In this document: positions 53,494 through 64,000 of the stretch, in pieces
Layout of the letters: the number at the start of each line of letters is the position of its first letter
How positions within the stretch are numbered: the stretch's first letter is position 1
From: Konateibacter massiliensis
GTDB taxonomy: Bacteria > Bacillota > Clostridia > Lachnospirales > Lachnospiraceae
Reading direction: 5' to 3'
DNA length: 64,000 bases
Assembly: GCF_900184995.1 (NCBI RefSeq)
Contig: NZ_LT860099.1
Coordinates: 2,546,332 to 2,610,331 of the forward strand
Notes under the pieces: generated by a model
Database searches by the model: none
Seen by the model: only the letters and a program-made list of their open reading frames with translations
Told to the model about the DNA's origin: nothing
Made by a program: the position numbers and the translations under genes

Positions 53494-53520
53494 TGAGAAA
53501 AAATCGCGGGGTGGATGTAT

Positions 53521-54342
53521 ATGCCTTTATTGTATAATCGTCTGGTAACGACCATCAATGAAACAACCATAGATAGTATCGAATACCATATAGCTGGTGT
53601 TATGATGGAGAGTATCGGAAGCATTAATTCTTTCTCAATCGGTGAAATGGCAAAGCTTTGCAGCGTATCAAAATCTACCATTTCCAAATTTGTCCGTAAA
53701 CTCGGATTTGATGATTATATTGACTTTAAGCTTGAAGCTGTGCGTGAACACGAGAAAGCTGTCTATATAAAAAATCAAAATACAAGTAATATTACAGACT
53801 GTATATTGGCACATAGTGTTGACTATTACCGCAAAATTTTAGATTATGATATCAATCATCTCTTTCAAACAATAGACAAACAACCCATTGAACAATTGGT
53901 AGATGATATTTATCATTATAAAAAGGTAGCAGCGTTTGGAGAAGTTTATTCGGAGACAATCTGCTTAAATCTTCAGTACAAAATGGCATTTTATCAAAAG
54001 TTTATCTATACGACACTAAATGACCAAAAGCAAACGGAGTATATTCGAAATGCCGACGAGGATACACTGCTTATTATTTTTTCAAATTCCGGAAGGTATA
54101 TCAACGTACATGCCATGCAGGACGGAATGCCTCAAAAAGATTGTTTTAACCAGTCAAAAGGAAAAGTAGTCCTGATTACGTCCAATAAAGAAATGAGACA
54201 AAACAGTTGGGTAGATAGCCTGATTTATTATGAGCATTCCACAAATGTACAGAACCACCCTATTCTGTATCAGCTTCTGATTGAGATGATTGCCGTTAAA
54301 TACCAGCAGAAATATGGCTTTCCACAAGACAAAAAAATTTAA
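53521..54342 (+). CDS. RpiR/MurR-family regulator of the GH95-EIIBC genes
   Basis: A 273-residue regulator with an RpiR helix-turn-helix (IGEMAKLCSVSKSTISKFVRKLGFDDYIDF) and a C-terminal SIS-like domain (LLIIFSNSGRYINV). The ATG at 53521 follows GGGGTGG. It is upstream of, and codirectional with, GH95 and EIIBC, which it probably controls in response to a phosphosugar. Confidence 0.88.
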   Translation: MPLLYNRLVTTINETTIDSIEYHIAGVMMESIGSINSFSIGEMAKLCSVSKSTISKFVRKLGFDDYIDFKLEAVREHEKAVYIKNQNTSNITDCILAHSVDYYRKILDYDINHLFQTIDKQPIEQLVDDIYHYKKVAAFGEVYSETICLNLQYKMAFYQKFIYTTLNDQKQTEYIRNADEDTLLIIFSNSGRYINVHAMQDGMPQKDCFNQSKGKVVLITSNKEMRQNSWVDSLIYYEHSTNVQNHPILYQLLIEMIAVKYQQKYGFPQDKKI

Positions 54343-54396
54343 AGAGTCTTTGAAGAGTTTCTAAATTGCGAACTTTTCGAAAGCTCTTTTTTTTTT
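54342..54396 (+). terminator. Imperfect hairpin with T-run after the RpiR gene
   Basis: AAAGAGTCTTTGAAGAGTT pairs imperfectly with AACTTTTCGAAAGCTCTTT, then a run of Ts. It directly precedes a TATAAT box at 54399-54404, so GH95 probably has its own promoter. Confidence 0.65.
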
Positions 54397-54398
54397 GC

Positions 54399-54404
54399 TA
54401 TAAT
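54399..54404 (+). promoter_or_regulatory. -10 box of the GH95-EIIBC operon
   Basis: A perfect TATAAT lies 31 bases upstream of the GH95 start. A weak -35 candidate (TTCGAA) sits 17 bases further upstream within the terminator arm, so folding and promoter use may compete. Confidence 0.45.
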
Positions 54405-54435
54405 CGGTTTAGCAACACGGAAAGGAGAATGGCAA

Positions 54436-56736
54436 ATGAATAAAATCTGCATGCATAAAGAGGCAAAAAACTGGAATGAAGCACTTCCTGTCGGCAATGG
54501 TTTTATGGGCGCGATGGTCTTTGGAGGCGTCGGGACAGAAAGAATACAGATAAATGAAGATTCCGTTTGGTCCGGTGGTTTTATTGAGCGGACTAATCCG
54601 GATGCACGAGACTATTTTTCCAAAATCAGAGATTTGCTTATGGCTGAGAAAACAGGTGAAGCAGAAAGACTTGCAGAACAAAGCATGTTTGGAGCTTATC
54701 CTCACATGCGTCACTATCAATCGCTTGGTGATATTTGGTTACATTTTCCCAAGGAAAAGGGAAAAAAAGCACTGACTCAATTGGAAAACGGACTGATGTA
54801 CCAGGCTTGGGTACCAAAAACAGTCAAAGACTACAAGCGAAGCTTAGACATTGAACAATCTGTTGGCACAATTCAATATCGGTACGAAGAAAGAATGTAC
54901 GAGCGTGAATTTTTTGCATCTAACCCGGATAAGGTAATCGTATACAAGTTAAATGCAAAAACGGCAAAAACATTGAATTTCGAAACAGCTCTGACCAGAA
55001 AAGACAACCGTGGAGGCAGAAGTGTATCTTACTGCGACGGCGTAGAAGTTCTGGATAATGAAATAATACGATTATATGGTCAGCAGGGAGGCGAAAATGG
55101 AATTGGGTTTGAGTTAATGGTCATGATAGCTTCAACCGGAGGACGGCAGTACCGAATGGGTGGACGTATTGTCGTGGAAAATGCAGACAGTGCAACACTC
55201 TATATCACGGCAAGAACCACTTATCGAAGCACATCCCCAAGAGAATGGTGCCTGCAAACCTTAAAAGAGGCCGCAATTCAGGAATACACTGCTCTGCGCC
55301 AAAGGCATATAAACGACTACCAAAAGTATTATAAGCAAAGCATGCTGCTACTTGAAGGGGATGAGAAGCTGGAAAGTCAAAGCACACCCGAACGATTACA
55401 GCGAATGCGCGAAGGATATACCGATATCGGTCTGGTAAATACCTATTACAATTATGCAAAATATTTGCTTATCAGTTCAAGCAGAGAGCACAGTCTACCG
55501 GCAACACTGCAAGGAATCTGGAACGAGGATTTTGCGCCTATGTGGGGCTCTCGCTATACAATTAATATCAATATTCAGATGAACTACTGGCTTGCAGAAA
55601 AATGGGGCCTGCCCGAATTGCATATGCCGTTGTTTGAACATCTGAAGCAAATGCAAAAAAACGGTAAACAGGTAGCAGACAAAATGTATGGTGCAAGAGG
55701 CTTTTGCTGTCATCACAACACAGATATATGGGGTGACTGCGCTCCGCAGGACAGCAACATTGCCGCCACAATCTGGCCGTTGGGAGCCGCATGGTTGTGC
55801 CTGCACATTGTGGAGCATTACCAATATACAAAAGACCCGCTATTTATTCAAAGATATTACCCGGTATTAAAGGATAGTGTATTATTTTTCCTTGATTATA
55901 TGTTTCAAAATGATGAGGGTAACTGGGTTACCGGTCCTTCCTGCTCACCGGAAAACACATATGTGAGTGAGAATGGAGAATACAGCAATCTGTGTAACGG
56001 ACCTGTTATGGATTTGGAAATTCTGCATCAGCTTTTTACCGGATATCTCAAAATAACGGATGAAATTGGCGGCGAGAACGATATCAGCCAGGAAGTAAAG
56101 GAACGGCTGGATGGTATGCCGGGAATTAAAATCGGAAAGTATGGACAGATACAGGAATGGCAGAAGGATTATGAGGAGGCAGAGATTGGGCACCGACATA
56201 TTTCCCAACTCTTTGCACTCTATCCGGGAGAACAAATTCGGGCAGACCAGACACCCGAACTTGCCAAAGCCGCAGAGCTTACGCTTAGAAGAAGACTCGA
56301 AAACGGCGGTGGTCATACAGGCTGGAGCAGAGCATGGATTATTCTGTTTTTTGCAAGACTGCATAAAAGTGAGGACGCATGGTATCATCTGGAAGAGCTT
56401 CTGAAGAATGCAACGCTCGATAACCTTTTTGATAACCACCCGCCATTTCAGATTGACGGTAATTTTGGGGGTGCCTGCGGTTTACTTGAAATGCTTGTAC
56501 AAGACTACGGGAAGCAGATTTATCTCTTACCGTCATTGCCAAAGCAATTAAAAACCGGAAAGTTGCTTGGAATTCGAACAAAATGCGGAGGAATACTTAA
56601 TCTTTACTGGTCAAATGGAACAATCACAAAATGGGATTTAAAAGCTGAAAGAGATTTAGATGTAACGATTGTAGGTGAAGCAAATGTTTCACATTACATA
56701 GCCTTAAAGAAAAACGAGGCATTTTATTGGGAATAA
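54436..56736 (+). CDS. GH95 alpha-L-fucosidase or alpha-L-galactosidase
   Basis: A 766-residue inverting glycosidase. The N-terminal beta domain opens with WNEALPVGNGFMGAMVFGG and INEDSVWSGG, typical of the family. The alpha/alpha barrel carries the TININIQMNYW segment with paired asparagines and GHRHISQLFALYPGEQI. The DGNFGGACGLLEML segment holds the conserved aspartate. The family includes alpha-1,2-L-fucosidases and alpha-L-galactosidases, which cannot be separated here. No signal peptide, so it acts on imported substrate. It is followed after 19 bases by an EIIBC, suggesting that a phosphorylated disaccharide is the substrate. Confidence 0.93.
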   Translation: MNKICMHKEAKNWNEALPVGNGFMGAMVFGGVGTERIQINEDSVWSGGFIERTNPDARDYFSKIRDLLMAEKTGEAERLAEQSMFGAYPHMRHYQSLGDIWLHFPKEKGKKALTQLENGLMYQAWVPKTVKDYKRSLDIEQSVGTIQYRYEERMYEREFFASNPDKVIVYKLNAKTAKTLNFETALTRKDNRGGRSVSYCDGVEVLDNEIIRLYGQQGGENGIGFELMVMIASTGGRQYRMGGRIVVENADSATLYITARTTYRSTSPREWCLQTLKEAAIQEYTALRQRHINDYQKYYKQSMLLLEGDEKLESQSTPERLQRMREGYTDIGLVNTYYNYAKYLLISSSREHSLPATLQGIWNEDFAPMWGSRYTININIQMNYWLAEKWGLPELHMPLFEHLKQMQKNGKQVADKMYGARGFCCHHNTDIWGDCAPQDSNIAATIWPLGAAWLCLHIVEHYQYTKDPLFIQRYYPVLKDSVLFFLDYMFQNDEGNWVTGPSCSPENTYVSENGEYSNLCNGPVMDLEILHQLFTGYLKITDEIGGENDISQEVKERLDGMPGIKIGKYGQIQEWQKDYEEAEIGHRHISQLFALYPGEQIRADQTPELAKAAELTLRRRLENGGGHTGWSRAWIILFFARLHKSEDAWYHLEELLKNATLDNLFDNHPPFQIDGNFGGACGLLEMLVQDYGKQIYLLPSLPKQLKTGKLLGIRTKCGGILNLYWSNGTITKWDLKAERDLDVTIVGEANVSHYIALKKNEAFYWE

Positions 56737-56755
56737 GGAGAAGGAGGAATCTGAA

Positions 56756-58192
56756 ATGAAATATGAAAAAATGATTCAAGAAGTTATAGCCGGTGTTGGG
56801 GGTGCCGAAAATATTACAAGCGTCTATCACTGTGTTACCAGACTTCGCTTTCATTTAAAAGATGAGGGAAAGGCAAATGATGATGCAATCAAAAATATTG
56901 AAGGGGTACTGTCTGTGATTAAGGCAGGCGGTCAATACCAAGTCGTAGTCGGTCAAAAGGTTGGTGAGGTCTATAAGGAACTGATTTCTTTTCTTGGGTT
57001 GGAGGAACAGGATTCCAATTTGATTGACGCGTCTGAAATGAAAGCCGGTATGAAGGAGAAAAAAGTAAAAAGCAGTCTGTTTGATTTAATTTCCGGAATT
57101 TTTACCCCAATATTGGGTATTATGGTTGGTTCTGGTGTTATTAAAGGTGTTCTTGCGCTGCTGACAGCCACCGGCATTCTTGCCTCAACTTCCGGAACAT
57201 ACCAGATATTGTATATGATTGGTGATGGATTTTTTACCTTTATGCCTATCCTTTTGGGATACACTGCAATGAAAAAATTTGGCGGTACTCCCTTTATTGG
57301 TTTGGCAATCGGCTGTGCGCTGGTATATCCGAGCATAACAACCATTCTCGCCGGGGAACCACTATATACCCTATTTTCCGGCACTATCCTTGAGTCACCG
57401 GTTTACATTACTTTTCTTGGAATACCTGTTATTTTAAAAAGCTATACCAGTACAGTATTCCCTGTTGTTGTAATCTGTTATCTGGCTTCTAAGCTTGAAA
57501 AGTTTTTTAACAAACGTATCAATGATATGTTTAAAATGTTTGCGGTACCGGCTTTAACACTTACTTTCAGCCTCGTTGCTGGATTCTTGGTTATCGGCCC
57601 GTTTGTATCCATTGTCAGTGATTTACTTGGAGCGGCTATCAGTGCCTTGTACAGCGTCAGTGCCGTTGCCTGCGGATTTTTGTACGGCTCGTTGATTCAA
57701 CTCTGTGTTGTATTTGGAGTTCATTGGGGGTTTGTGGCAATTTCCATCAACAACCTTTCCACTATGGGCTATGATCCAGTCACAATTGCAGGTTTAAGCT
57801 CTGCTTTTGGACAGGCGGGCGTTGTGCTTGTTATATTGTTAAAGACCAGAAACCAGAAAATAAAGAGTGTATGTGCACCTGCAATTCTTTCTGCAATGCT
57901 TGGAATCACAGAACCGGCAATCTATGGCGTGACCCTGCAAAATAAAATGTCATTTATCCTTGCCTCAATTGCTTCGGGTTTAGGCGGTGCAATTATTGGT
58001 ATGGGAGGAGTAAAGCAGTACTTCTACGGCACAAACGGAATCTTTGGATGGCTCCAGGTTATTAACCCGAATACAGGTTTCGATTCTTCCGTAGCAGCTT
58101 CCATTATTGCCTGCGTAGTAAGCTTTGTGGTTTCTATCTTATTAATGGCTACGATTGGTAAGAATAGTATACCTGATTTGAAGAAAGTTTAA
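56756..58192 (+). CDS. Phosphotransferase system EIIBC, beta-glucoside/sucrose family (second copy)
   Basis: A 478-residue permease. EIIB has phospho-cysteine Cys26 in [14 protein letters not shown] has about ten membrane segments and GITEPAIYGV near the sugar site. As in the copy at 42391, no EIIA domain is attached. The start follows AAGGAGG. It is transcribed with the cytoplasmic GH95, so the pair probably imports a fucose- or L-galactose-containing glycoside. Confidence 0.94.
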   Translation: MKYEKMIQEVIAGVGGAENITSVYHCVTRLRFHLKDEGKANDDAIKNIEGVLSVIKAGGQYQVVVGQKVGEVYKELISFLGLEEQDSNLIDASEMKAGMKEKKVKSSLFDLISGIFTPILGIMVGSGVIKGVLALLTATGILASTSGTYQILYMIGDGFFTFMPILLGYTAMKKFGGTPFIGLAIGCALVYPSITTILAGEPLYTLFSGTILESPVYITFLGIPVILKSYTSTVFPVVVICYLASKLEKFFNKRINDMFKMFAVPALTLTFSLVAGFLVIGPFVSIVSDLLGAAISALYSVSAVACGFLYGSLIQLCVVFGVHWGFVAISINNLSTMGYDPVTIAGLSSAFGQAGVVLVILLKTRNQKIKSVCAPAILSAMLGITEPAIYGVTLQNKMSFILASIASGLGGAIIGMGGVKQYFYGTNGIFGWLQVINPNTGFDSSVAASIIACVVSFVVSILLMATIGKNSIPDLKKV

Positions 58193-59248: not shown

Positions 59249-60727
59249 CTAATCAATGGACATCAGTTTTAATAGTTCCACCTGGGAAAACTCTTCCCTG
59301 CTGATTTCCCCTTTTATTCTTCCCTCTGAGAGAGCATAGATGCGGTCCGACATGCCCAGCAATTCCTCCATATCAGAGCTTATCATCAAAATTGCCTTTC
59401 CCTCATCTGCAAGCTCCGATAGCAGATTGTAAATTTCTGCCCGTGCCCCCACATCGATTCCTCTTGTCGGCTCATCAAAAATAATCACCTTTGAATTTGT
59501 AATAAGAGTTCGCGCAAGTACGACCTTCTGCTGATTCCCTCCGCTTAAATTGCGGACCAACTGGTTGATAAACGGGGTTTTTATTTTTAGCTTTTCCACA
59601 TATTCCACGCCCTGCTCCTCTACCTTTTTGTCGTTAACAAATAAAAGTCTTGATATTTCCGGCAGATGTGTCAAGGCAATATTCCAATCAATCCCAAAGT
59701 CCAAAAGACAGCCCTGCCTTTTCCTATCCTCCGGGATAAGTCCAATTCCATTTTGAATTGCATCTCTTGGCGAATTGATTACAATCTCTTTTCCCTCTAT
59801 TTTAATGGTGCCCGATTCCATTTTATCCGCTCCAAAAATCATTCTGGCAAGCTCCGTTCTTCCCGCTCCCACCAGGCCTGCAAGCCCTACAATTTCTCCT
59901 TCATTTACATGCAGAGTGATATCCCTATCCTTTCCTCCGCACACCTTTTCAAGCTCTAACATCGGCTTGTTTGTTCTTTTTGTTCTATTTGGGTAGATTT
60001 CCTTCAATTCCCGGCCTACCATATATTTAATCAGTTCCTGCTTATTTGTATCTTCCGTTTTTAAAGTTGTAATATACTGACCGTCTCGCATAACGGTAAC
60101 TCTGTCTGTAATAGTAAAAATTTCGTCCATTCTATGTGATATGTAAATAACCGAAACCTTTCTCTTTTTTAATTCCCGTATCAGGTCAAATAAAATTTCT
60201 ACCTCGTTCGTCGTCAGCGGTGCCGTCGGTTCATCCAGAACTAAAATTCTGACGTCTTTTGAAACTGCCTTCGCAATCTCGACAAGCTGCTGCTGGGCGG
60301 TGGACAGCTGAAAAACAAATTTGTCAGGTTCAATATTAATGTGAAGATTCTCAAATACCTCTTTTGTTTTACTGGTCAATAATTTAAAATTTACAAATCT
60401 TCCATATTCTGTTCCAAAGCACACATTTTCAGCCACAGTCAACCCATCAATCAGATTAAGTTCCTGATAAACAACCTCAATTCCATACTCTCTTGACAGT
60501 TTAGGAGACATTTCGTTGTACACGTTTCCTCCTATTTCTATTGTTCCCTCCTCGGGTGTAATTGCACCACTTAAGCATTTGATCAGGGTTGATTTGCCTG
60601 CACCATTTTCACCAATCAGGGCATGTACCTCCCCTTCCTTCAGCTCAAAGGAAAGCTTGTCGAGTGCTACCACTCCCGGATAACGCTTTGTCACATTTTT
60701 TAAGGACAATATTGTATTATCGCTCAT
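59249..60727 (-). CDS. Sugar ABC transporter ATPase (RbsA/MglA type, double domain)
   Basis: A 492-residue protein with two ATPase domains. The N half is intact: Walker A GENGAGKST, LSTAQQQLVEIAKA and Walker B ILVLDEPTAPL. The C half has the family's usual altered P-loop GLVGAGRTE with LSGGNQQKVVLARTL and IIFDEPTRGID. The ATG at 60727 follows AGGAG. It is the functional counterpart of the degenerate paralogue at 61997. Confidence 0.95.
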   Translation of the reverse strand: MSDNTILSLKNVTKRYPGVVALDKLSFELKEGEVHALIGENGAGKSTLIKCLSGAITPEEGTIEIGGNVYNEMSPKLSREYGIEVVYQELNLIDGLTVAENVCFGTEYGRFVNFKLLTSKTKEVFENLHINIEPDKFVFQLSTAQQQLVEIAKAVSKDVRILVLDEPTAPLTTNEVEILFDLIRELKKRKVSVIYISHRMDEIFTITDRVTVMRDGQYITTLKTEDTNKQELIKYMVGRELKEIYPNRTKRTNKPMLELEKVCGGKDRDITLHVNEGEIVGLAGLVGAGRTELARMIFGADKMESGTIKIEGKEIVINSPRDAIQNGIGLIPEDRKRQGCLLDFGIDWNIALTHLPEISRLLFVNDKKVEEQGVEYVEKLKIKTPFINQLVRNLSGGNQQKVVLARTLITNSKVIIFDEPTRGIDVGARAEIYNLLSELADEGKAILMISSDMEELLGMSDRIYALSEGRIKGEISREEFSQVELLKLMSID

Positions 60728-60807
60728 GTTCAAAACTCCTTACCTTTATGGAAGCGGAAGGGCTGCTGTTATACCAGCCCCTCCGTTTCTGATTTTTAGC
60801 ACTTCAA

Positions 60808-61887
60808 TTAATATCCGTATTCTGCCAGATTATCCGCTGTAATTTGTGCCATATCTACTGCTGAAAAGTTGTCAACTTTCTCTCCCTTTAGAAGACTATC
60901 TATGATTCCTGCTATTTCCTTAACATTATCCTCGGTTTTGCCACCATTTAAGACGGAACCCTTTAATACGCCTGCCTTCATATAGTTTGCAAGTTCGGAA
61001 TTCATCTCCGTTCCGAATATACCCATCTGCGTCACGTCCTCCACAGGGCTTCCCTCTGAAATTGCATAGGCTATCACGCCAAGCACCATCTCTCCGCCTG
61101 TTGTCAAAATACAATCAATCTGTCCATATTTGCTGAACATATTCTCTGTGGCTTCCTGCGCCTTTATCGTGGAGGCTTCAATTCCTGCGGACTCTAAGAT
61201 ATTAAATCTCTTATCCTCCTTTAGGGAAGCTTCCATTGCCTCATATCGTTCCTTCTGCTCCGCACTGTCTGTATTTCCAAATAATACTGTGCTGATAACA
61301 CCCTCTCCTGCATCTGCGCCGTACTGGTCATCTGCCCAGGATTTTGCAAGTGCTGCAATCGCCTCACCACACATTGTCTCATCGCTTCCGCGGAAAACAT
61401 CAACAGACTCTTCACCCGGATTTTGAACAAATGCCAGTACCTTGACACCCGCTTTCTGGGCTGCTGCACAGGCATCGGAAACCTCCGCACCACTGCTTGC
61501 CCATACGAAAATCAAGTCAGCACCGCCTGCAACTGCATTTTCAATCTGCTGAATCATTGTCAATGCATCTCCGTTTGAGGACTGTGACTCATAGGCATAT
61601 CCTAACATCGTACAGTTTTCCTTTAGAAGGTCATCAAAATATTTAAAGAATTCACCTTCCAAGCTAAAAAACATCGCCGCAACCTTTGTCGTTTCCCCCG
61701 TGTTTGCCGTGGCTGCCGTATCGGTACTTTCTGCTGTCTCCTCTGTCTTTGTATCTGTCGCAGTGTTTTCTGCTGTGGTACTTTCTGCAGAAGTACTGCT
61801 TTCTTGTGTTGCCGTCTTACTTGTGCACCCTGCAAGCATGGATACAGTCAACGCTGCTGTTAAAACCAAACTCAATACTTTTTTCAT
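60808..61887 (-). CDS. Sugar-binding lipoprotein (RbsB type)
   Basis: A 359-residue periplasmic-binding-protein type I receptor. The lipoprotein signal ends at MLAGC with lipidated Cys21. A 45-residue Thr/Glu/Ala/Ser-rich linker follows, then the sugar-binding lobes (VAAMFFSLEGEFFKYFDDLL and IDCILTTGGEMVLGVI). It supplies sugar to RbsA/RbsC and, by position, may also present it to the kinase system upstream. The start follows GGGAGGACAAG. Confidence 0.93.
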   Translation of the reverse strand: MKKVLSLVLTAALTVSMLAGCTSKTATQESSTSAESTTAENTATDTKTEETAESTDTAATANTGETTKVAAMFFSLEGEFFKYFDDLLKENCTMLGYAYESQSSNGDALTMIQQIENAVAGGADLIFVWASSGAEVSDACAAAQKAGVKVLAFVQNPGEESVDVFRGSDETMCGEAIAALAKSWADDQYGADAGEGVISTVLFGNTDSAEQKERYEAMEASLKEDKRFNILESAGIEASTIKAQEATENMFSKYGQIDCILTTGGEMVLGVIAYAISEGSPVEDVTQMGIFGTEMNSELANYMKAGVLKGSVLNGGKTEDNVKEIAGIIDSLLKGEKVDNFSAVDMAQITADNLAEYGY

Positions 61888-61996
61888 GTTTCTTGTCCTC
61901 CCATTTTTTGTTTCTGCTTCTTTTTACACTCTTATTATAATTTTATTATCAATGCTCCATAAGGGGGCAACCTTACGAAAAAGGAGGGCTATTTTA

Positions 61997-63424
61997 TCAT
62001 TTTTTAAGTACTTCTATTTTTTTGCCCTTTATTTTATAAATTCGATTGCAAACCTGCTTTAAATCGCTGCTGTTTACTGACAAAAATAAGAAGGATTTTT
62101 TCTCGGCAAGGCATTTTTCTATATTTTCAATCATTCCATCCCATCTTGCATCATCCACATGTGCCCAAAACTCCTCCGCCACAATTAATTTAGAGCTGTT
62201 CATACTCAGCCTGTGAAAAATAATACCCTCCCTCTCCTTCCAGCTGCAATCGTCAATCCGCTCCTTCGGCGGCATCTTATTTTTCTCCCGGTATTTTGCA
62301 TAGATAAACTCCATAAAGGTTCGGTTCAAAAACAGCCTGCCCTTGCTTGTCCTCTTCATGCTGTTAATAATCAGATTTTCCTTGACCGAGAGATTGTGAA
62401 ACAAATTGTTTTGAATATCAATCATATCAAGCTCATAAACTCCTTCAAAAACTGCCCGTTCATAACTATCCGGAACGTAAAATTTATTGTTTATCCACAT
62501 ATACCAGTTCTGAAGCTGTCTTTTTCCCAGAATTTCTTCCAAAAAAGCATTAAGCTCCCCCGTGTTTTCAAAGATAATGCCTACACACTCCCCTTTTGCA
62601 ATAAAAATCGGCTCTTTGCTCTGCCCTTCCCTGATTCGCAGTCGGAATAACTCGTCATCCTTTTTCTTACCTATCCAGTCTGCCTGCCTTGTGTGGCTCG
62701 TCTGATTTACCATTTTACTTAAAATTTCTTTGTCCTCCGGTGTATCAAAAAAGGTTCTGACATTTTTTCCATGGTGCATTACAACAAGCTTATCCATATA
62801 TTTTATTGTATTCATACATTTTCCTGTAATCCAGAGTATAGAAGTCCCCTTGCTCTGCAAAAATCGAATTGCCGAGAAGAGTTTGTCTCGCTCAGCAGGT
62901 GTATAGATGTCAGCCATGTCATTTATGATAACAAGCCTTGCTTTTCTGCAGTACGCCTTTGCAAGCTTTACAATCTGCCTGTCAATCTTTGATATTTGTC
63001 CCGCTAACTTTTCGGGCGGAATACCGACTCCCATCATGTTGAGAATGTGTTCTGTCTCCCGATAAAGTATCCTTCTTGGCAAAGTGAAGCTAAACATATT
63101 TTGTTTCCACGACAAAAATATATTTTCGGCAACGGACATTCCCAAAACCAAGCCGGTATGGTCGGATACGGCAAATATGCCAAGCTTATCAGGCTTTATC
63201 GGCTCCCTAATGTCAAGAGGTTCTTCATTTATATAGATTCTGCCCGCCAACGCTGTATTCTGCCCCATTAAAAGCTCCGCGACCTCCTTTCTGCCACAGC
63301 CAAAATTGCCGTACAGTATGACAAACTCTCCCTCCAAAATATTTAATTTAAAATCAGACAATACCGCAGCACCCTTACTTTTCATCTCAATGTGCTCCAG
63401 CCTTACTATTTCATTTTTTATCAT
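61997..63424 (-). CDS. Degenerate RbsA-like double ATPase, predicted inactive
   Basis: A 475-residue protein with the two-domain layout of RbsA but eroded motifs. In the N half the P-loop is GNFGCGRK at 39-46 (no GKS/T), the signature region is AGQISKIDRQ at 141-150 instead of LSGGQ, and Walker B is VIINDM at 165-170 with no catalytic Glu. In the C half the P-loop region is GIIFENTGE at 282-290 and the Walker-B-like strand is KLIVAEEF at 412-419. ATP hydrolysis is improbable. It overlaps the histidine kinase gene by 14 bases and precedes the RbsB-type gene by 109 bases. A role as a signalling or scaffold partner of the kinase or transporter is inferred; a decaying transporter gene is the alternative. 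Confidence 0.82.
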   Translation of the reverse strand: MIKNEIVRLEHIEMKSKGAAVLSDFKLNILEGEFVILYGNFGCGRKEVAELLMGQNTALAGRIYINEEPLDIREPIKPDKLGIFAVSDHTGLVLGMSVAENIFLSWKQNMFSFTLPRRILYRETEHILNMMGVGIPPEKLAGQISKIDRQIVKLAKAYCRKARLVIINDMADIYTPAERDKLFSAIRFLQSKGTSILWITGKCMNTIKYMDKLVVMHHGKNVRTFFDTPEDKEILSKMVNQTSHTRQADWIGKKKDDELFRLRIREGQSKEPIFIAKGECVGIIFENTGELNAFLEEILGKRQLQNWYMWINNKFYVPDSYERAVFEGVYELDMIDIQNNLFHNLSVKENLIINSMKRTSKGRLFLNRTFMEFIYAKYREKNKMPPKERIDDCSWKEREGIIFHRLSMNSSKLIVAEEFWAHVDDARWDGMIENIEKCLAEKKSFLFLSVNSSDLKQVCNRIYKIKGKKIEVLKK

Positions 63425-64000
63425 ATTCTGCCTTTTCCTTTACAACCCGTGGCAAAACAATTTCCGCCTCTGTCCCGATACCCTTTACGGAAGAAAACGT
63501 CAGTCCATATTCCTCCCCATAAATCATCTGGATTCTCTGATTAATATTTGAAAGGGCAATTCCTCCCCTCCTATCCTCACTCTCCAGAATCTCCTTGTTT
63601 GTCCGCAGTCCTTCCTGTACTTTCCTCAGTATCTCCTCCGGCATTCCCGGCCCGTTATCCCAAACCGTGATAATAATTCTCTTTTCTGTTGCAAAAAGGT
63701 GCACCGTTACCTTGCCACCATTTATGTTTTTCTCAATACCATGGTAAATCGAATTTTCTACCAATGGCTGTAAAATCAACTTTGGCATTTGCGCATTCTC
63801 AATTAAATGCTTTTCGGTGTGATAGACCGTCTCGTATGCAATTCGCTGCTTAAACCGAAATTTCTGGATTCGAATATAACTTTCAATATTCTCAAGCTCC
63901 TCTCTGATGGTCACCAAATCGCTCTTTTTGCTGATGTTGTAGCGAAAATAGTCTGCAAGCGACTCCGACATCATCGCGGCATCCATGTCTCCATGCATAA
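63411..64000 (-). CDS. Sensor histidine kinase, LytS/YesM type, C-terminal part (cut by window edge)
   Basis: The C-terminal ~196 residues of a sensor kinase; the frame runs off the right edge. The SLADYFRYNIS segment just after the missing phospho-acceptor helix, the N box LVENSIYHGIEKN, the G1 box DNGPGMPEE and GGIALSNINQRI are intact. The family normally pairs with an AraC-type response regulator, presumably beyond the window. Its last 14 bases overlap the start of the degenerate RbsA-like gene, so they are translationally coupled. Confidence 0.92.
   Translation of the reverse strand, partial: MHGDMDAAMMSESLADYFRYNISKKSDLVTIREELENIESYIRIQKFRFKQRIAYETVYHTEKHLIENAQMPKLILQPLVENSIYHGIEKNINGGKVTVHLFATEKRIIITVWDNGPGMPEEILRKVQEGLRTNKEILESEDRRGGIALSNINQRIQMIYGEEYGLTFSSVKGIGTEAEIVLPRVVKEKAEYDKK

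Follow-up and report, generated by a model that had tools for sequence, protein, structure and literature searches.

An intact gene for an apparently dead ATPase lies beside the gene for a sensor-less histidine kinase in the genome of Konateibacter massiliensis, which suggests that this protein informs the kinase about the state of the sugar transporter. The protein is a tandem ABC protein resembling RbsA, and for this copy and its relatives we use the name dRbsA. The likeliest role of dRbsA, we infer, is to couple transporter state to the kinase, and there is good support for the dRbsA module being both widespread and constrained.

The window locus and its RbsA-like protein

The window, the whole stretch of 64,000 nucleotides that was analysed, was extended into the genome at this locus as L003 (window coordinate = L003 coordinate + 55999), and the minus-strand gene order was AraC-type regulator, kinase, dRbsA, RbsB, RbsA, and RbsC. 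The dRbsA frame (61997-63424, minus strand), identified from the frame list, profiles, motifs, and predicted fold, was intact and 475 aa long, and its 5' end overlapped the 3' end of the kinase gene by 14 bp (63411-63424, minus strand); the original prediction of such an RbsA-like frame overlapping a kinase gene was confirmed by the coordinates. The YesM/LytS-type histidine kinase, with matches to His_kinase (PF06580, 94.1 bits) and HATPase_c (47.4 bits), is present in the window as its C-terminal part (63411-64000, minus strand), the whole gene of 281 codons (63411-64256) running 256 bp past the window end. The response regulator, of 548 aa with receiver and AraC-type HTH domains, ended 14 bp upstream of the kinase gene. 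Downstream of dRbsA, and also on the minus strand, were an RbsB-like sugar-binding lipoprotein (Peripla_BP_4; 60808-61887), an ordinary CUT2 ATPase of the RbsA/AraG type whose N-half motifs are intact (59249-60733), and an RbsC/AraH-type CUT2 permease (PF02653; 58286-59236), so that the predicted link to an RbsABC transporter was borne out between 61887 and 58286. A scan of 60700-62100 for promoters and terminators gave numbers near chance (2 versus 2.8 expected and 2 versus 1.1, respectively).

On the plus strand and convergent with rbsC, the window also contained genes for an apparently RpiR-like regulator, a GH95 glycosidase, and a PTS EIIBC (53515-58192), which probably form a separate operon. 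Several dRbsA loci (L003 11031-15586, L024 11232-13259, L025 11060-13087, and L070 1416-3443) had, upstream of the regulator, oxidoreductase-like genes, judged by the start of their sequences, and xylose-isomerase-like TIM-barrel genes (by Pfam for the L003 copy). These genes give a hint of the pathway that may be controlled.

The profile matches and the predicted fold described the window dRbsA as a single chain with two ABC domains. The Pfam ABC_tran model matched only the N half (44 bits), and the best-scoring NCBIfam model, AraG, gave 108.5 bits, compared with 541 for the neighbouring RbsA; the AraG cutoff of 689 does not discriminate between them, because the real RbsA falls below it too. 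An AlphaFold model of the protein (pLDDT 84.9, pTM 0.79) had ABC ATPases as its top Foldseek matches, several of them tandem, such as DppD. When the RbsA sequence was compared with solved structures, the 60 matches listed out of 144 included none named as a CUT2 importer.

The chain carries near its start the family signature NEIVRLEHI (63389-63415; family consensus KEEILRMERV), this and all following positions being on the minus strand. In the N half, the Walker A motif GNFGCGRKE (63284-63310) had Lys changed to Arg and Ser to Lys, the signature region ISKIDRQIVKLAKA (ISKIDRQ; 62954-62995) and the Walker B motif RLVIINDMAD (62909-62938) were lost, and the H-loop ILWITGKCM (62813-62839) was without its His. 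In the C half, the LSGGNQQ signature was lost (CSWKEREGIIFHR, CSWKEREG; 62210-62248), and the Walker B region (LIVAEEFWAHVD, VAEEFWAHVD; 62153-62188) had lost its Asp and kept one acidic residue. A competent N-half site was absent, with no Walker A Lys, Walker B Asp-Glu, or H-loop His, and no LSGG signature in the C half. Kept in both halves was the segment following the Q-loop, LGMSVAENIFLSW in the N half (63107-63145), the expected permease-docking face, and NLFHNLSVKENLIIN in the C half (62363-62407). The original claim that the motifs are lost in both halves stands insofar as both are degenerate, but it went too far for the Walker A glycines of the N half, which are still present, and for the one remaining Walker B acid of the C half.

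Spread of the family and loss of catalytic motifs

A search of 61 genomes, with 16 other neighbourhoods read, yielded six dRbsA genes including that of the window, each in the order regulator-kinase-dRbsA and one of them an additional copy from the genome that contains the window. With a profile built on these six, at least 27 of 397 genomes of the same taxonomic family held a dRbsA confirmed in its neighbourhood. A 30-member profile found dRbsA in 13/392 genomes of the order (no member below 451 bits, the next match scoring 334 bits), 13/391 of the class, and 4/299 of the phylum, each count including the window's own genome; these numbers are lower bounds, because divergent members score far lower. 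From a scan of named genomes using two patterns (the N-terminal signature and the post-Q segment), 80 of 273 relatives were kept, among them representatives of Anaerocolumna, Mobilisporobacter, Diplocloster, Robinsoniella, Ruminiclostridium cellobioparum, Caproicibacter fermentans, Tepidanaerobacter, and Paenibacillus dakarensis, and four of the 80 (L242, L244, L246, and L247) scored as ordinary RbsA. For the motif counts, removal of sequences shorter than 400 aa or below 150 bits, and of duplicates by the last 250 residues, left a set of 118 dRbsA, outside which stand the later-found divergent members L279, L281, L282, and L283 and a 251-aa sequence, L280. The last is a half-length gene with the N half only (L280 8276-9031, the same as L287 2276-3031), located upstream of a regulator and a short kinase and adjoining a divergently oriented RbsA-RbsC-binding protein set. 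In the literature, no description of a catalytically dead RbsA linked with a kinase was found in the titles and abstract starts of the matches listed, a search that covered few subscription journals.

The C-half Walker B Asp was found in 0/118 dRbsA versus 102/103 RbsA, and the two C-half signature glycines in 1/118 and 2/118 versus 103/103 each. At the N-half site, the Walker A Lys was kept in 43/118 versus 99/103, with the window copy among the 75 without it, while the Walker B Asp (22/118), the catalytic Glu (35/118), and the H-loop His (7/118) were each present in 103/103 RbsA. All seven checks were passed by no dRbsA and by 81 of the 103 RbsA, the other 22 missing one or two. The uniform erosion of the original prediction thus holds in that the losses are common to the 118 relatives, but not in degree, since 43 of them keep the Walker A Lys and the loss is graded: five dRbsA retained Lys, Asp, and His together at the N-half site, and a near-canonical GLSGAGKS/T-like site was retained in L024, L025, L070, L073, and L077. 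Given the 43 members with the Walker A Lys and the 35 with the Walker B Glu, ATP binding, and rarely more, is possible in dRbsA. A close homologue with intact motifs, which the original prediction took as a sign of ordinary transport or decay, was approached by a single metagenome copy (L237, 2677-4155; 436 bits with the dRbsA profile and 369 with that of RbsA) that retained the N-half Lys, Asp, Glu, and His, had lost the C-half signature, and already stood behind a regulator and a kinase. It looks like an intermediate.

If dRbsA were a decaying RbsA duplicate, retained merely through its operon position, a very divergent copy such as that of the window would be expected: its identity to 29 aligned relatives was 16-24%, and its branch of 2.66 was among the longest in a quick tree of 48 dRbsA and 25 RbsA, in which the placement of this and three other long branches (L095, L245, and L032) is unsure. 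The same tree split dRbsA from RbsA by one branch with an SH-aLRT of 99. Against decay stand the 118 relatives of at least 400 aa and the dN/dS values of 0.094, 0.081, and 0.099 in the three closest pairs. Two further pairs gave 0.24 and 0.16, and nine of the 14 pairs computed were saturated at silent sites; purifying selection was thus seen in close pairs of family members, the window copy being without a close relative. Against decay, too, are newly conserved positions (L027 numbering), namely L91 (118/118), E4 (116/118), and R7 (114/118), the latter two being most often Y and E in RbsA; in a 30-member alignment made before the pattern scan, E5, L92, N101, and N350 were invariant as well. 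Based on the shared motif loss, the low dN/dS, and the new conserved positions, decay was rejected for the family, and we regard it as very improbable in general. The selection for a non-catalytic role that had been proposed therefore has strong support at the level of the family.

Linkage to kinases without a sensor domain

The link to a kinase proved fixed when homologues were checked, with a kinase gene directly upstream of dRbsA in 113/118 loci (112 by the original gap rule, 113 once a wider overlap was allowed), and the order regulator-kinase-dRbsA was recovered by script in 108/118. The two genes overlapped or lay no more than 30 bp apart in 107 of 112 measured junctions, lengths being taken from the first possible start codon, which may make some overlaps too long. 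For the RbsA control, a kinase was located within 300 bp upstream in only 2/103, and their coordinates make it likely that these two are L183 and L186, both of them rearranged. RbsA, RbsC, and a binding protein were all present in 84/118 dRbsA loci, a count that includes 30 loci cut by a contig or locus edge, where the absence of a gene is ambiguous; in some loci (e.g. L080, L086, and L093), neither RbsA nor RbsC was just downstream of dRbsA.

The five loci without a kinase directly upstream were L157, L183, L186, L187, and L236, the last at a contig end. Around the dRbsA of L157 (6115-7569), no kinase, regulator, or transporter gene was found within the 14 kb read. In L183, L186, and L187, dRbsA was followed by a large gene and then, further down the locus, by the regulator, kinase, and RbsA. 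In L183 the product of the large gene is a chemoreceptor that carries HAMP and MCP signalling domains, and it is possible that in this layout the same sensor is linked to chemotaxis.

Two helices connected by a loop of 2-26 residues were predicted for 103 of the 113 partner kinases; of the other ten, five had one helix and five had none. The helix-less group comprised L076 (split), L239 and L182 (short or cut), L204 (of near-normal length), and the window copy, which is truly short, had no predicted membrane helix, and gave a modest structure model (pLDDT 75, pTM 0.64) with a helical N-terminus. At L076 (5779-6590), the partner kinase lies in two frames next to an open dRbsA, from either a real break or a sequencing error. 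Judged from their sequences, nearly all partner kinases appear to be without an extracellular sensor domain. Five kinases of CUT2 loci without dRbsA (L029, L031, L033, L035, and L038) were 499-610 aa long with loops of 151-259 residues, and the one among them that was scanned had a dCache-like match just below the Pfam cutoff. A long kinase (L219, 494 aa) was also found inside a dRbsA locus, in addition to the short partner. The original prediction had allowed for a sugar-loaded receptor acting directly on the kinase, in the manner of XylFII and LytS. Such direct sensing is not supported, because the loop of nearly all partner kinases is too short for an extracellular domain and that of the window has no predicted membrane helix.

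The association was also read in reverse, from 30 YesM-type kinase loci in three genomes. A dRbsA-like operon gene accompanied 9/9 short kinases (260-362 aa) and 0/21 long ones (488-642 aa, read 1.5 kb to each side), a split with a chance of about 7 in 100 million by a hand calculation, a figure qualified by the non-independence of genes in one genome. Four of the nine loci carry divergent dRbsA (149-232 bits) that were beyond the reach of the first searches; dRbsA lay within the locus for eight of the nine, and for L258 it was located on the far side of the regulator, in the larger stretch L280. The three genomes contained 93 YesM-type kinase matches, 61 long ones being outside the reverse test, and 11 of the frames were shorter than 400 aa. 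Outside the 30, the short kinase G017:C79 also had a dRbsA-like gene, and a 212-aa kinase fragment in the window's genome (G000:C7:2289223), with a cut regulator, had none, which brings the short frames linked to dRbsA to 10/11.

One locus with a divergent member (L282 2510-7434, or L286 12510-17434) contained a regulator, a 260-aa kinase in which no helix was predicted, dRbsA, and an RbsC-like gene that shares 4 bp with dRbsA; RbsA was absent from the 17.5 kb read. It may represent a receptor made from a permease.

Conserved segments and a proposed mechanism

The segment that follows the Q-loop faces the permease coupling helix in ABC importers, for example in MalK. Of 415 sliding 12-column windows along dRbsA, the best conserved was this segment in the N half (DLTVADNIFVLR), followed by the family-specific N-terminus (MKEEILRMERVT), the post-Q-loop segment of the C half, and the former N-half signature region. 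Relative to RbsA, the information in these four windows was 0.97, 1.36, 0.98, and 0.77, respectively, compared with 0.45-0.78 for the catalytic motifs and 0.72 for all columns; the two scan patterns favour the N-terminus and the N-half post-Q segment and so somewhat inflate the conservation of these two among the 118. The fourth rank of the N-half signature region indicates that the docking segments are not the sole constraint on dRbsA. Over 75 loci, dRbsA distances correlated with those of the kinase at 0.92, the regulator at 0.89, RbsC at 0.77, and RbsA at 0.73, and RbsC in turn correlated less with the kinase (0.69) than with dRbsA. The partial correlations of dRbsA were 0.55 for the kinase, 0.16 for RbsA, and 0.03 for RbsC, so that the distance test alone gives no support for a contact with RbsC; the L282/L286 locus does point toward such a contact.

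These data bear on two other roles. A cytosolic sensor, in which ATP/ADP or a metabolite bound in the cleft of the tandem NBDs gates the kinase and leaves the permease untouched, would explain why dRbsA varies together with kinase and regulator while hardly any link to RbsC remains, why some members keep the Walker A Lys or a near-canonical site, and why L157 stands apart from transporter genes. We consider it unlikely, as the Lys is missing in most of the family, conservation is higher in the expected docking segments than in the nucleotide pocket, and RbsA, RbsC, and binding protein accompany dRbsA in 84/118 loci. That last count, and the retained docking segments, would suit equally a structural subunit that pairs with RbsA on RbsC as an asymmetric importer with no signalling, and fused CUT2-type ATPases normally have one site that is degenerate (PMC11466899). 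RbsA itself already supplies the two NBDs of a transporter, however, and dRbsA tracks the kinase more than RbsA and is predicted by the sensor-less kinases, leaving this role distinctly improbable.

For the preferred coupling of transporter state to the kinase, we propose that a CUT2 (RbsA-type) tandem ATPase was duplicated and became a dedicated input subunit of a two-component system. Presumably inactive on nucleotides, dRbsA would dock on the cytosolic face of RbsC through its kept post-Q-loop segments, replacing RbsA or beside it, and would bind the N-terminal region of the sensor-less YesM-type kinase. Delivery of sugar by the binding protein would change the conformation of RbsC, dRbsA would relay this change to the kinase without ATP cycling, and the kinase would phosphorylate the AraC-type regulator, which may then adjust the transporter and catabolic genes. 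By analogy, dRbsA would report to its kinase much as BceAB does for BceS, and on balance we think this somewhat probable. The kinases of the window and of L282/L286 have no helix of their own and need another route to the membrane. A tentative version, to which we give rather less than even weight, is an importer turned receptor, with the dead ATPase as an adaptor on RbsC and the permease as the transmembrane sugar sensor of the kinase, as at L282/L286, where no working ATPase gene is nearby.

In the Bce systems, BceS has no extracellular sensor and depends on BceAB, with flux sensing proposed (PMC10314905; PMC7828314). The dRbsA module resembles this arrangement in its sensor-domain-less kinase, linked ABC transporter, occurrence in Bacillota, and grouping of kinase, regulator, and transporter genes, and the window kinase goes beyond it in having no predicted helix at all. 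Bce involves an exporter-type transporter whose ATPase works and whose permease has a large extracellular loop, and it is directed at antimicrobial peptides, whereas the dRbsA module has a linked CUT2 sugar importer with an RbsC/AraH-type permease, a dead tandem ATPase as an extra subunit, and a YesM-type kinase. XylFII and LytS likewise associate a CUT2-type sugar-binding protein with a LytS/YesM-type kinase, but XylFII acts through the ligand-binding domain of LytS outside the cell (PMC6321045), a domain that the dRbsA-linked kinases do not have. With RbsA, AraG, and XylG, dRbsA shares two ABC domains per chain, length, and the post-Q-loop segments. A degenerate second site is natural to these ATPases, and the model of B. 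subtilis RbsA, an RbsA-C2-B assembly, has one such site (PMC11466899). dRbsA differs in its lost N-half Walker B, C-half signature, and H-loop and in its fixed kinase link.

These results make dRbsA a candidate input for YesM-type kinases without a sensor domain, and the rule that a short YesM kinase predicts a dead RbsA can be applied to any genome. The genes are presumably annotated as ordinary sugar ABC ATPases, and for Lachnospiraceae and related bacteria the number of transporters and the sugar uptake predicted could therefore be wrong. If the proposed mechanism is true, transporter-coupled signalling would extend from antibiotic exporters to sugar importers by way of a dedicated pseudo-enzyme subunit.
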